From positions 1 through 28,290 of IMG/VR virus record IMGVR_UViG_3300048028_000325: 28,290 bases of DNA; one strand, given 5' to 3'. Below, in pieces: positions 1,435 to 26,730 of the stretch. A program made the translations under genes and the position numbers. Positions within the stretch are counted from its first letter, which is position 1. Every line of letters begins with the position of its first letter. The stretch is from a virus. The notes under the pieces are model-generated. The model was not told the origin of the DNA. It did not search any database and saw only the letters and a program-made list of their open reading frames with translations.

Positions 1435-1908
1435 CTAGTCCAGACTATCAAAATCTGTATATGTAATTGTTACATCTTCACCTGCTACTAACGCTGCAGC
1501 AATTTTTGGATATACCCTTTTATACGCAATAGCAGAACGACCAACGAATCCATCACTCCACTCAAAATTTGTTTGTTGAGTATCACCAAGAAGTAAGCAC
1601 CCAGCAGTATGTTCATCTGTATTACCAGTGTGAATAAGGATATACTCAAAATTAGGAACCTTACGTACCCACAACATGCCTTTGTGCATCTCCCCATACT
1701 TCTTTAAATATCTACCATGAAATCCTCCCACCGTCCGGAGAGTAATGTCATATGTTCCTGCAGGTACTCTGGTTTCACCGTACTTTTTAACGTCCCTATG
1801 TTCGTCTTCAAGTGTGTAGCATAAGAATTTTCTTCCCTCTGTAATGTCAAATAATAATCCATTTGTGCTGTCACTTTCACTGCTAAACCTTAATACTTCT
1901 AATTTCAT
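1435..1908 (-). CDS. DUF5675 family protein, lysis-gene candidate
   Basis: This 157 aa protein matches my memory of DUF5675: an N-terminal LEVLRF strand, the FxCYTLEDE segment (residues 28-36), a VPAGTYDITLR strand (48-58), and the signature IHTGN (92-96) followed by HTAGCLLLG (100-108). The His/Gly/Thr/Cys arrangement (H93, T101, G103, C104) resembles the His...(S/T)xGC motif of YkuD L,D-transpeptidases, which suggests a cell-wall enzyme fold, but no activity is established to my knowledge. Its ATG overlaps the TGA of the 52 aa membrane protein upstream by 4 nt, an arrangement seen in holin/endolysin pairs. There is no signal peptide. The family call is fairly secure; the lysis role is inference. 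Confidence 0.8.
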   Translation of the reverse strand: MKLEVLRFSSESDSTNGLLFDITEGRKFLCYTLEDEHRDVKKYGETRVPAGTYDITLRTVGGFHGRYLKKYGEMHKGMLWVRKVPNFEYILIHTGNTDEHTAGCLLLGDTQQTNFEWSDGFVGRSAIAYKRVYPKIAAALVAGEDVTITYTDFDSLD

Positions 1909-23318: not shown

Positions 23319-23556
23319 CTTTAAATTTTATTCTAGCCCTACTACCTTCTATAACTATCTCAGAAGAAGTAGCCTGCCTGTTAAATTCTTGCACATACGG
23401 CTCTATATCTTTACGTGTCGCCATAAAACTCAAAAAGACTGCTATTTCTTTAGCAGCCCTTTGGGTGTCATCTCGAAGAGTCTCGGATTTCTCTTTACTT
23501 TCTAGTAAATCGTGGTAATCCTTTAGAGATATAGTTACTGTACCTGCAGGAATCAC
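23311..23556 (-). CDS. Small hypothetical protein after the GroES-like gene
   Basis: An 81 aa protein with a helix at ISLKDYHDLLESKEKSETLRD (9-29 in outline), a second helix rich in Ala/Phe (RAAKEIAVFLSFMATRKD) and a final strand pair ending in SRARIKFKDA. The ATG overlaps the stop of the GroES-like gene (4 nt, ATGA), so it is translationally coupled to it. The opening TVTISLKDYHDLLE is a form seen in many short phage proteins of unknown role. Confidence 0.5.
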   Translation of the reverse strand: MIPAGTVTISLKDYHDLLESKEKSETLRDDTQRAAKEIAVFLSFMATRKDIEPYVQEFNRQATSSEIVIEGSRARIKFKDA

Positions 23557-23834
23557 AAGAATCTACCTAAAATTTGGAATTCGTTAACAAATAAGTACGA
23601 TACCTCATTGATATGTACAATCATTGCCTCTGAACTAGGATCTACCATAACAGTATCCCCAACTTGTGTCTGTCTACAATCTGGTCCTACTGCTAATACT
23701 TCTAGAACATTAGTACGCAGCTTGTTTGCTACGTCATCTTCTAGAATAATTCCTGACTCTCGCTTTTTTGCTGCAGGATTGGGTAATATAACCCATCCAC
23801 CGTAAGGTTTAAAATCTAATTTAGTGTCTGCCAT
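23553..23834 (-). CDS. GroES-like co-chaperonin (Cpn10 family)
   Basis: A 93 aa protein of typical Cpn10 length. The N-terminal strand FKPYGGWVILPNP (8-20) matches the PLGDRVLVKP start of GroES; KKRESGIILEDD (23-34) corresponds to the mobile loop that contacts GroEL; VLEVLAVGPD (43-52) is the conserved GxVLAVGxG strand, VGDTVMVDP (58-66) the VGDKVLF strand, and NEVSYLFVNEFQILGRF the C-terminal strand. Phages such as T4 use their own co-chaperonin (gp31) with host GroEL to fold capsid protein, so a role in capsid assembly is likely. It is the first gene after a good promoter. Confidence 0.85.
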   Translation of the reverse strand: MADTKLDFKPYGGWVILPNPAAKKRESGIILEDDVANKLRTNVLEVLAVGPDCRQTQVGDTVMVDPSSEAMIVHINEVSYLFVNEFQILGRFL

Positions 23835-23900: not shown

Positions 23901-23904
23901 ATTT

Positions 23905-24237
23905 CTAAACATTTTTACCAATGTCCTCTAGAATAGAGTCAGTTCTTTTGGTAGTTAGGGCTATCTTATTGTCTCTGTACAAGATAAAAGCAAATATGAT
24001 AAGAGCTATCATAATAGCAAAAAATGTAGGTACCATCCAATACTGCCAATTTGTTGCAGCTAAGCTATCCTGACTGTCAGTGTTTCTTTTCCAGCTATCC
24101 GCATGGTCTTTGTGTACATAGATATTTTCAAACCCAGTCTTATTGTCGTAGTGCATATCTACTATCACACTATCCTTGTATCCACTTGCCCAAGTTCTAA
24201 CGCTATCTCCCCAACTACTTACCTTCTCCTGTGGCAT
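23905..24237 (-). CDS. Single-TM membrane protein in the two-component operon
   Basis: A 110 aa protein. A polar N-terminal domain (1-60) carries SVIVDMHYDNKTGFENIYVHK, then a hydrophobic helix (about 68-87, VPTFFAIMIALIIFAFILY), then a short tail (RDNKIALTTKRTDSILEDIG). The basic residues after the helix favour a cytosolic C-terminus and an exposed N-terminus, without a cleavable signal peptide. It is the last gene of the cluster, overlapping the coiled-coil gene by 23 nt. It may form a complex with the two-TM protein, for instance as a sensor, spanin-like or holin-related subunit. No family is recognised. Confidence 0.6.
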   Translation of the reverse strand: MPQEKVSSWGDSVRTWASGYKDSVIVDMHYDNKTGFENIYVHKDHADSWKRNTDSQDSLAATNWQYWMVPTFFAIMIALIIFAFILYRDNKIALTTKRTDSILEDIGKNV

Positions 24238-24763
24238 ACTTCACTCCCATTATTGTTCCTATGATGCTAAAGCTATTGGTAAGGAGGATACCAAATAGGT
24301 TGCTCCACGCATTACCAAGCAATGTGGTGTCTTTTCCCATCATTATTGCCATAGTATATAGTATAGTGGTGGTTATTCCCACCATAACTATAACTATCAA
24401 TGCCACCCTTACAATGAGTCCTATCAACTCAAACTGGGTGCGCTTTTGTAAGGTATCTAGATCCTCTACAGCTTTATCTCTTAGTTTCTCCGCTTCATCC
24501 TTTTCATTCTGAAGCTCTATAACAAGAGCCTTATTTACTGTGGCCGCTTCTTCAAGCTCTTTGTTCTGAGCCTGTACTTGCTTAGTAACATCAAGCCTTT
24601 TTCTACGGGCATTCTTATCCCTAGCTTTGCACTCTTCAACATACTCCTTGACATCGGCAGGTAAAGTTTTTGAAAGTATCTTTACGAAGTTCCCCTCCAA
24701 GTAAACCTTCTTAGCTTTTGCTTTACGCAATGCTTCCTCTACCGTGTCTTTAGAAGTTATCAT
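24215..24763 (-). CDS. Coiled-coil protein with C-terminal two-helix membrane hairpin
   Basis: A 182 aa protein. Residues 1-55 are basic and helical (VEEALRKAKAKKVYLEGNFV start), 55-108 form a strong heptad-rich coiled coil (QVQAQNKELEEAATVNKAL and LQNEKDEAEKLRDKAVEDL), and two membrane helices follow at about 112-140 and 152-175 (FGILLTNSFSIIGTIMGV). The N-terminus is predicted in the cytosol. Its ATG overlaps the response-regulator stop by 4 nt (ATGA), so it is coupled to it. It is the best candidate for the regulator's output partner: a membrane channel, holin-like pore or scaffold driven by the receiver domain. The C-terminal hairpin also fits a holin. Confidence 0.6.
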   Translation of the reverse strand: MITSKDTVEEALRKAKAKKVYLEGNFVKILSKTLPADVKEYVEECKARDKNARRKRLDVTKQVQAQNKELEEAATVNKALVIELQNEKDEAEKLRDKAVEDLDTLQKRTQFELIGLIVRVALIVIVMVGITTTILYTMAIMMGKDTTLLGNAWSNLFGILLTNSFSIIGTIMGVKYATGEGK

Positions 24764-25197
24764 TTGTACACTTTGAACGGATTTTCTTTGTTCTTATAAC
24801 CTTCGTAGTCCTTAACAAAGTCCTCAAGGCGTGGCTCTATCTCATCACTCTTGATGATCCAAAACTGGGCACCTACTCCCTTCGCTTTATCAATTTCTTG
24901 GTTGTCATCAGAGCTAGAAATAATACCAATAACCACTCCGTTTCCATAATCTGTATTTATTTTTCTGATAAGTTCAATGCCGTCAAAGCTTGAACCAATG
25001 ATGTTGAGGTCCACGAATACACACTCTGGTCTTTCGTCGATAGGGCCCTCAACAAACCATTTCTTAAATAATTTGTCTGCTTCATCTGAACTGTCTAGGG
25101 CTTGTAAGCTTAATGTCATATCAAGGAGGCTGCATGCATCCTCAAACACTAAGTGGAATAGATCCTCATCATCAACTAGTAGTATACTATCTATCAT
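24760..25197 (-). CDS. Stand-alone receiver-domain response regulator
   Basis: A 145 aa CheY-like protein consisting of a receiver domain and a short tail. The acidic pocket is D9-D10 (LLVDDED), the phospho-acceptor D63 (CVFVDLNI), the switch serines at S94-S96 (GIISSSDD) and the invariant Lys K116 (WIIKSDE). There is no DNA-binding or enzymatic output domain; only about 25 polar residues follow. The D+2 region (LNIIGSSFDGIELI) has a short insertion as in rcp1/CheY-like single-domain regulators. ATGA overlaps join it to the kinase before it and the coiled-coil membrane protein after it, so it is expected to be phosphorylated by that kinase and to act by protein contact. Confidence 0.9.
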   Translation of the reverse strand: MIDSILLVDDEDLFHLVFEDACSLLDMTLSLQALDSSDEADKLFKKWFVEGPIDERPECVFVDLNIIGSSFDGIELIRKINTDYGNGVVIGIISSSDDNQEIDKAKGVGAQFWIIKSDEIEPRLEDFVKDYEGYKNKENPFKVYK

Positions 25198-26423
25198 TTC
25201 AATTTTATTATCATCATTGTACCATTCTCCAGTTTCTCAGCCCTCATTGTAAAGCCATGCTCCTTAATAATAGCTACACAGATATTTAATCCTAATCCGG
25301 TGCCTTTATGTTTAGTGTTGCCGCGGGTATACGGCTGAGAAAGTCTTAAAAAATCCTCTTGACTTATACCAGTCCCATTGTCCTGGATAGCAATAGTATT
25401 TTCAACTCTAAAGATCGTTACTTTTTTCGTACCGCTATTATTATACTTTAATCCATTTCGAATCAAGTTATCCACAGCAGTACAGAAGAGTGCAGGGTTA
25501 ATTTCTAACTCTCCCAAGTCCTTGATTACAACCTGCTTACTGTAAGATGTTGAAGATAGATAGTTTTTAAGAATATCCTTTACATTTACAAGCTGCATAT
25601 CAAGTTGTGCATCTTCCTTTACTAGGTTAGTGAATTCTTTTACGCCAGTGTATACTTTTTGTGTGTGGTTTAGTCCCTCCTGTATCATTCTCAAGGGGGC
25701 TGTAATTTTTAGATCTTCTATTTGCTTTTCTGTCAGTCTACGCTTTAGGCTTCTTAGTCCTCGTGGTATGTATGTGTTGATGCCTGAGTGCATATCGTGC
25801 CTTAGGATCTTAGCAGCGTGCTCCAAGTATCCATTCTTCTTATGCATCTCTTCCTCAATCTCTTTTGACTCAGTAATATCAGATGCAATCTTCAGAATCC
25901 TGTACACCTCTCCATAGGGATTCATAATAGGATTGTAGTTACCATAAATCCAAATATCATTACCATCCTTATCCACTCGTAGGAACTCACCGCTCTTTAC
26001 CTTGCCTTTACTCAAGTCATACCAAAAAGAACTGTAGGCTGCCTTATCAATATGCTTAGGCATAAATATCCTGTGGGGCATACCAATAATCTCCTCCTCT
26101 TGGTACCCAGTCAACTTACAAAACACATCATTGCAAGAAATAATAACTCCGGCCTTGTCAAACTCAACAAGTGCATTGGACTTATCAATAGCCGCTAGGG
26201 TATCATCAATACTCTGAAGCTTATACCTAACTCTCCTGACAAACTCTACAACAGTGTAGAAAAAAAATGGCATAAAAAGTACTACAGCCGCCCATCCTAT
26301 GACCACGCTCTGCCTTGTTAATTCTGCATAGCCGATCATAAGAGCCGTCTGGTAACTAAAAAACGCTAGCATAATTGCAACTGCAATACCTAGCGTTATA
26401 CGCGATACAATAGATAATTTCAT
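25194..26423 (-). CDS. Membrane PAS-domain sensor histidine kinase
   Basis: A 409 aa kinase. Two hydrophobic helices (about 8-32 and 38-60) with a very short loop anchor it, so sensing is probably intracellular or within the membrane. A PAS domain spans 75-185 (FCKLTGYQEEEIIG; FWYDLSKGKVKSGEFLRVDK; IWIYGNYNPI), of the Aer/BdlA type often linked to redox or small-ligand sensing. The dimerisation/phosphorylation helix has H209 in ILRHDMHSG. The catalytic domain has the N box DNLIRNGLKYN (318-328), the G1 box DNGTG (348-352) and the G2 box GTGLGL (374-379). All catalytic motifs are intact, so it should be active. It overlaps the response-regulator gene by 4 nt. Confidence 0.92.
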   Translation of the reverse strand: MKLSIVSRITLGIAVAIMLAFFSYQTALMIGYAELTRQSVVIGWAAVVLFMPFFFYTVVEFVRRVRYKLQSIDDTLAAIDKSNALVEFDKAGVIISCNDVFCKLTGYQEEEIIGMPHRIFMPKHIDKAAYSSFWYDLSKGKVKSGEFLRVDKDGNDIWIYGNYNPIMNPYGEVYRILKIASDITESKEIEEEMHKKNGYLEHAAKILRHDMHSGINTYIPRGLRSLKRRLTEKQIEDLKITAPLRMIQEGLNHTQKVYTGVKEFTNLVKEDAQLDMQLVNVKDILKNYLSSTSYSKQVVIKDLGELEINPALFCTAVDNLIRNGLKYNNSGTKKVTIFRVENTIAIQDNGTGISQEDFLRLSQPYTRGNTKHKGTGLGLNICVAIIKEHGFTMRAEKLENGTMMIIKLK

Positions 26424-26730
26424 CTCTACCCGTTTAGATACACCTTCCCCTTAGGGAATTTGTATTTCGATTGGAATTTTACCTCTTAGCAGTGCTACCA
26501 TTTCTGGTTACCTAGGGACACTAAAACTAGTGTTAATTCACCGCACCTACCTGTGTGCAATGTGCCCCAACTACAGGCTATATCCTCTCTTTTCGAAGCT
26601 ATTGGAGAAAACTCTGTTCCTTATTTAGGAACTACAATCCAACGTCTGACCCCATAACTACCTTTTGGCCCTCTGGGGTGATACACTTTCGTGTGCTTCT
26701 GGTGGTAAAGATATAAAAATTTATAAACTC
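26424..26730 (-). other. Non-coding, hairpin-rich leader region before the kinase gene
   Basis: All six frames of this 307 nt stretch are closed by many stops. Five short perfect or near-perfect hairpins lie within about 235 nt: 26649-26654/26674-26679 (6 bp), 26616-26621/26627-26632 (6 bp, 5 nt loop), 26518-26523/26528-26533 (6 bp, 4 nt loop), 26497-26500/26505-26508 (4 bp closing a GAAA loop on the minus strand) and 26445-26449/26454-26458 (5 bp, 4 nt loop). If transcription comes from the box near 26864, this would be the untranslated leader of the kinase message. It could be a structured regulatory RNA or attenuator. It matches no RNA family that I recognise. Confidence 0.45.

Follow-up and report, generated by a model that had tools for sequence, protein, structure and literature searches.

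The window, which is the whole 28,290-base stretch of IMG/VR virus record IMGVR_UViG_3300048028_000325, carries on its minus strand four genes in tandem, joined by overlaps of 4 nt (HK/RR), 4 nt (RR/CC), and 23 nt (CC/TM1). The open reading frame calls agree with the initial annotation on the genes, their place in the window, and all three overlaps. The features of the locus are as follows:

25194..26423, minus strand: HK, sensor histidine kinase with a PAS domain, 409 aa (ORF call and Pfam)
24760..25197, minus strand: RR, receiver-only response regulator, 145 aa (ORF call and Pfam)
24215..24763, minus strand: CC, coiled-coil two-TM protein, the proposed output, 182 aa (ORF call)
23905..24237, minus strand: TM1, single-TM protein, optional fourth member of the cassette, 110 aa (ORF call)
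23915..26427, no strand: mobile block found in the window but missing from sister phage L244/L245, with ends that coincide with the four genes
26501..26701, minus strand: candidate conserved structured RNA of the leader 5' of HK, found upstream of GroES in relatives that lack the cassette
23553..23834, minus strand: GroES-like co-chaperonin, the first of the backbone genes that follow the cassette (Pfam/PHROG search)

The GroES-like gene is followed by small genes and then by the terminase, the portal, and a Crassvirus capsid, and a gene between the GroES-like gene and the terminase reads as integration-host-factor-like. The capsid matches Crass_capsid (PF23898) in Pfam with E=6e-83, and TerL and the portal match PHROGs, with crAss phages giving the best TerL matches. 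Because the terminase, portal, and Crassvirus capsid are all present, the window is a crAss-like phage (Crassvirales). The earlier claim that a complete kinase-regulator pair lies in a real phage genome, joined to a membrane protein, is supported.

HK begins with two TM helices separated by a very short loop, followed by a PAS domain (about residues 83-187), a DHp domain with H209, and an ATPase domain. Pfam recognises PAS_9 (2e-12) and HATPase_c (2e-15) in the protein; HisKA was not recognised by Pfam. As had been proposed from the single sequence, the catalytic motifs are intact: the H-box LRHDMHSGIN with H209, the N-box (N319, N323), G1 (D348-G350), and G2 (G374-G378) show no variation across 22 divergent relatives. 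The best solved relatives of the PAS domain are the sensor protein 3ewk, which we take to be MmoS, and the aerotaxis receptor Aer; MmoS and Aer are FAD proteins. HK relatives are about 409 aa long where they have the PAS domain and about 300 aa where they lack it, and the two-TM segment is kept in every HK of the phage set examined except L084, whether or not PAS is present. At some loci (L104, L112-L114, L121, L123, L124, L126, L128, L129, L131, L133, L139, L146, L151, and others), a gene for a 62-82 aa two-TM protein that ends in ..FCPSKW(F/I/L)FEK(L/I)G.. directly abuts or overlaps HK on its upstream side. This protein, which presumably resembles DUF2892, is a possible extra sensor subunit.

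RR matches Response_reg in Pfam (2e-7), and its model has the canonical receiver fold with one extra C-terminal strand formed by a conserved C-terminal tail. In the alignment of relatives, the acidic pair D9/D10, the predicted phospho-acceptor D63, S95, and K116 are invariant, in line with the earlier description of RR as receiver-only. No DNA-binding output domain of the LytSR type is present, the protein consisting of the receiver and a 20-residue tail alone. The closest folds to the model are single-domain regulators such as RPA3017 and Rcp1, and EutV is also a fold neighbour. RR is the most constrained of the three conserved proteins, with a mean pairwise dN of 0.13 vs 0.34 for HK and 0.36 for CC, four-fold/synonymous sites being near saturation in all three alike. 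The acceptor His with the N, G1, and G2 boxes is found in HK, and the acidic pair, acceptor Asp, Ser/Thr, and Lys are found in RR. Because these motifs are intact, HK and RR are very likely active as a pair.

Neither CC nor TM1 belongs to a curated family in Pfam, PHROGs, PADLOC, or NCBIfam. The predicted structure of CC (mean pLDDT 79) comprises a small N-terminal helical part, a continuous helix (residues 36-142) that runs into the membrane, and a second TM helix (147-178) with an invariant polar/small face. The two TM segments are predicted by both hydropathy and the model, and the N-in/C-in topology is read solely by the charge rule; the amphipathicity of the second TM helix is suggestive and does not rise above the 95% null. 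CC has no holin-family match in Pfam, PHROGs, or NCBIfam. Its match to SLATT_fungal (E=0.08) is below the Pfam cut-off, and no SLATT or defence two-TM effector was matched in Pfam above cut-off or in PADLOC. No solved structure and no fold of known function matches CC, and its sole match in BFVD is an uncharacterised phage homologue, A0A6J5PRT3. Residues 1-90 form an N-terminal domain common with the N-terminus of a host histidine kinase, described below; this domain was not found in plasmids.

The four genes behave as a single unit of gain and loss. A terminase search identified two sister phages, L244 and L245, whose TerL is 98% identical to that of the window and which keep the leader and GroES but lack exactly HK, RR, CC, and TM1. 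The alignment between the window and these phages breaks exactly at 26427/23915, with flanks about 95% identical. Because this empty site is precise, it is near certain that the four genes were gained or lost as one block. Sequence reaching 6 kb or more upstream of TerL is available for 22 relatives, and just one of them has the cassette at the window's place. Comparison with another carrier, L001, points the same way: HK, RR, and CC are 98-99% identical in DNA (91-99% at four-fold sites), while the backbone genes are 69-82% identical, GroES 88% (39-76% at four-fold sites). Because the cassettes are so much more similar than the backbones, the cassette has moved between crAss-like phages, and recently, probably by recombination in the shared flanks. 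A 7-bp inverted repeat, TCTAAAC...GTTTAGA, brackets the cassette at about window positions 26436-26442 and 23904-23910, and in L244, whose site is empty, a gap of 8 nt separates its arms. The stop codon of TM1 is supplied by the right flank of the cassette.

The initial annotation had raised the concern that the contig might be a chimera of host and phage DNA. We rejected an assembly chimera because contigs of four other IMG/VR records carry the cassette with the same junctions as the window, and because the empty site is precise.

At least 597 IMG/VR stretches encode HK relatives, and the carriers are hundreds of aquatic bacterial viruses. HK, RR, and CC occur together and in the same order wherever the contig extends (148 HK-seeded plus CC-seeded loci kept), whereas TM1 is found in 30 of 80 loci. 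CC is thus the obligate partner and TM1 is optional, so that of the four-gene set first described, the linkage to CC holds throughout and that to TM1 does not. Because the HK-RR-CC order recurs and the empty site shows one block, the gene set is beyond chance. A crAss-type capsid scored over the cut-off in 5 of 33 carrier contigs, so carriers include phages with and without a detectable one. In one carrier (L030), TerL is 22% identical to that of the window, HK 64%, and RR 86%. Some loci (L050, L060, L061, L067, L069, L070, L072-L076, and L078-L080) carry, between RR and CC, an inserted gene for a 163-167 aa membrane protein with a C-terminal coiled coil (MIKKLGHILTYHDSEPTEVLQG...). Downstream of CC in L060, L067, L074, L076, and others lies a membrane/coiled-coil protein of about 350-415 aa with a weak EF-hand match (cluster c21).

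The set had initially been called unusual. This is true relative to cultured phages, since a tblastn search of 50,697 phage records (INPHARED) with RR and CC found nothing and HK has weak general matches alone there, but the cassette is widespread and mobile rather than a one-off. The papers that could be searched, which include few subscription papers or preprints, held nothing relevant on a phage-encoded histidine kinase or two-component system of this kind. Receiver-fold domains do occur in jumbo phages as cREC domains, which are reported never to be found with histidine kinases and to go with NAD+ systems (PMC7824862); RR shares the receiver fold but is a classical response regulator with its own kinase. 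Two-component systems are old; the searchable papers describe no complete one that travels as mobile phage cargo and has a membrane protein as its apparent output.

A scan of one genome per species across 84,980 species, which used exact peptide patterns and may miss distant cellular relatives, returned four loci: two chromosomal relatives of the HK-RR pair, one further locus (L084, below), and a weak match. The first relative (L083), on a 967-kb Bacteroidetes contig, pairs a multi-PAS HK with an RR that shares 61% identity with that of the window. The second (L082), on a Bacteroidetes MAG contig, encodes a soluble multi-PAS HK and, with a 4 nt overlap, an RR 69% identical. Its third gene matches CC over the first 90 residues and continues into HisKA and HATPase_c domains; the CC N-domain aligns with it at 39% over 92 aa (BLASTP E=7e-14; hhalign 98.9%). 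The L082 operon thus resembles the cassette in gene order, in RR, and in the homologous N-terminal domain of the third gene, but combines a soluble multi-PAS HK with a kinase output where the phage has a membrane sensor and a two-TM output. The two-TM CC is absent from both chromosomal relatives. The remaining locus (L084) has HK-RR-CC, with two TM helices in CC, and its contig appears to be of phage origin and to have been binned with a bacterium.

An RR-profile search in overlapping samples of 396, 391, 292, 247, and 247 Bacteroidota genomes found no close chromosomal RRs beyond the two seed genomes. The other possibility flagged at the outset, that the set is an ordinary host chromosomal operon, does not hold either: chromosomal relatives exist, but the host versions differ in architecture and are not found in the sampled Bacteroidota relatives. 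Together with the junctions in four other records and the empty site, these results make a host operon or an assembly artefact extremely improbable. The same search bears on a hijack of host signalling, in which RR would compete with or feed host kinases or targets and the membrane proteins would be secondary. The extreme conservation of RR, as if it bound an invariant partner, and the 61-69% identity of the chromosomal RRs would fit such a role. We nevertheless regard it as rather improbable, given that the phage invariably supplies a kinase and a CC of its own and that the scarcity of close chromosomal RRs in the five Bacteroidota samples indicates no common circuit to enter.

The fusion in L082 suggests that RR acts on the N-terminal domain of the third gene product, the output being a kinase in the host and a two-TM protein in the phage. 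Because the linkage of RR to CC is obligate and a host fusion exists, an action of RR on CC is quite probable, and the output is likely to be at the membrane. The phage form may have been derived from the host form by swapping the kinase output for a membrane output.

The leader upstream of HK contains a candidate new structured RNA (window 26701-26501, minus strand) of about 200 nt with seven predicted helices and strong covariation. In the alignment, 96.2% of cells pair and 86 cells have double changes, compared with a shuffled mean of 23.7 and with none of 500 shuffles as high; 16 pairs have double changes, and sliding the partners drops pairing to 34-46%. Rfam has no family match at that position. 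Most crAss-like relatives have a single copy of the RNA, whether or not they carry the cassette, and a distant crAss-like contig (G401) gives a weak match (E=7e-6). In the window, the structural operon opens with its leader and then the cassette, raising the possibility that RR controls phage or host transcription, for example of the late operon that it heads, through the leader RNA or RNA polymerase. Some receiver proteins do have RNA-binding outputs, EutV among them. However, RR has no output domain beyond the receiver and its short tail, the RNA is kept in phages without the cassette, and most carriers tested lack the RNA, which leaves transcriptional control a quite remote prospect.

We then considered the genes beside the cassette. 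Many phages have a Pfam holin (PF05105) as the gene upstream of HK, preceded by an amidase endolysin with a peptidoglycan-binding domain. An earlier test with HMMs seeded from the neighbourhoods found lysis genes in 8 of 15 contigs vs 2.8 expected; it was judged biased and was redone with independent Pfam models. With these, PF05105 or Amidase_2 is detectable in 11 carrier contigs, and in 8 of them it lies within the 1 kb upstream of HK (P=2e-5 overall, 4e-4 without short contigs, and 0.011 when related ones are dropped as well). L008 and L010 share the gene order DUF5675, a small 2-TM gene, a small 1-TM gene, HK, RR, CC, TM1, and a spanin-like gene; the product of the last, like a unimolecular spanin, combines a lipobox with a C-terminal TM helix. 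The recognised lysis genes of five carriers (G400, G404, G409, G411, and G416) lie 21-68 kb off the cassette, and none adjoins it in the window itself. The early guess of lysis control gains support from the holin, amidase, and spanin neighbours in other phages. A DUF5675 protein is encoded in the window (1435-1908) and in L008, L010, L011, L019, L020, and L030, and it adjoins the cassette in other carriers. It has a sub-threshold match to the peptidoglycan-directed Tlde1 domain and belongs to a PHROG of unknown function; it is possibly a cell-wall enzyme, and its identity as an endolysin is unproven.

These neighbours also bear on another use of the same relay, in which CC and TM1 would serve superinfection exclusion or membrane protection, triggered by depolarisation or stress from a second phage. 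Exclusion genes are typically accessory cargo that one of two near-identical phages has and the other lacks, and a small multi-TM effector and a sensor without a periplasmic domain would suit them. The neighbours elsewhere, however, are lysis genes rather than known exclusion or defence genes, and PADLOC gave no relevant match, so that we consider exclusion unlikely.

Our preferred reading, which has about an even chance of being right, is that the mobile cassette is a membrane-to-membrane phosphorelay, most likely for lysis timing. HK would use its two-TM sensor, which has almost no periplasmic domain, to detect a membrane-associated state, and its optional PAS domain resembles FAD redox sensors. 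Phosphate would pass from H209 of HK to D63 of RR, which would dock on the N-terminal domain of CC, and the signal would run along the continuous coiled coil to the two TM helices. CC would then be an RR-gated holin-like or antiholin-like protein beside the phage's own holin, endolysin, and spanin, with TM1 as an accessory partner. The strong constraint on RR and the conservation of the two-TM segment of HK with or without PAS support a relay, for which the anatomy of the cassette provides good support. We infer phosphotransfer, RR-CC binding, the sensed signal, and the role in lysis; that lysis timing is the purpose of the cassette is about evenly balanced. Because the cassette is accessory, it is unlikely to be the sole holin, and a modulator of timing fits better than an essential or sole holin. 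More tentatively, and somewhat doubtfully, phages may have captured a soluble HK-RR-HK relay from a host, turned its sensor into a membrane protein, and put a two-TM protein in place of the second kinase. The outcome would be a swappable circuit, with input and output both in the membrane, that sets when the cell bursts.

Phage lysis timing is usually pictured as a holin clock with a few accessory modifiers. Class II holins have two TM helices with both ends predicted inside, and T4 lysis inhibition provides accessory control of timing; CC differs in its 110-residue cytoplasmic coiled coil, its kinase-relay partner, and the lack of a holin sequence match. In LytS/LytR with LrgAB, a sensor kinase reports the membrane energy state and controls holin-like proteins. 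Whereas LytR binds DNA, the RR of the cassette is receiver-only and the membrane protein is its proposed direct target. Compared with two-component systems of the Rcp1/CheY/Spo0F type, the cassette has the same intact kinase motifs, intact receiver, and single-domain fold, but it is phage-borne, mobile, and tied to a two-TM protein rather than to a motor, a phosphorelay partner, or DNA. The pair of near-identical phages, one a carrier and the other not, offers a ready natural comparison, and the host operon hints at the source of the parts. If the proposal is true, many environmental phages would sense the membrane state by a true two-component system and act on it post-translationally, without transcription.
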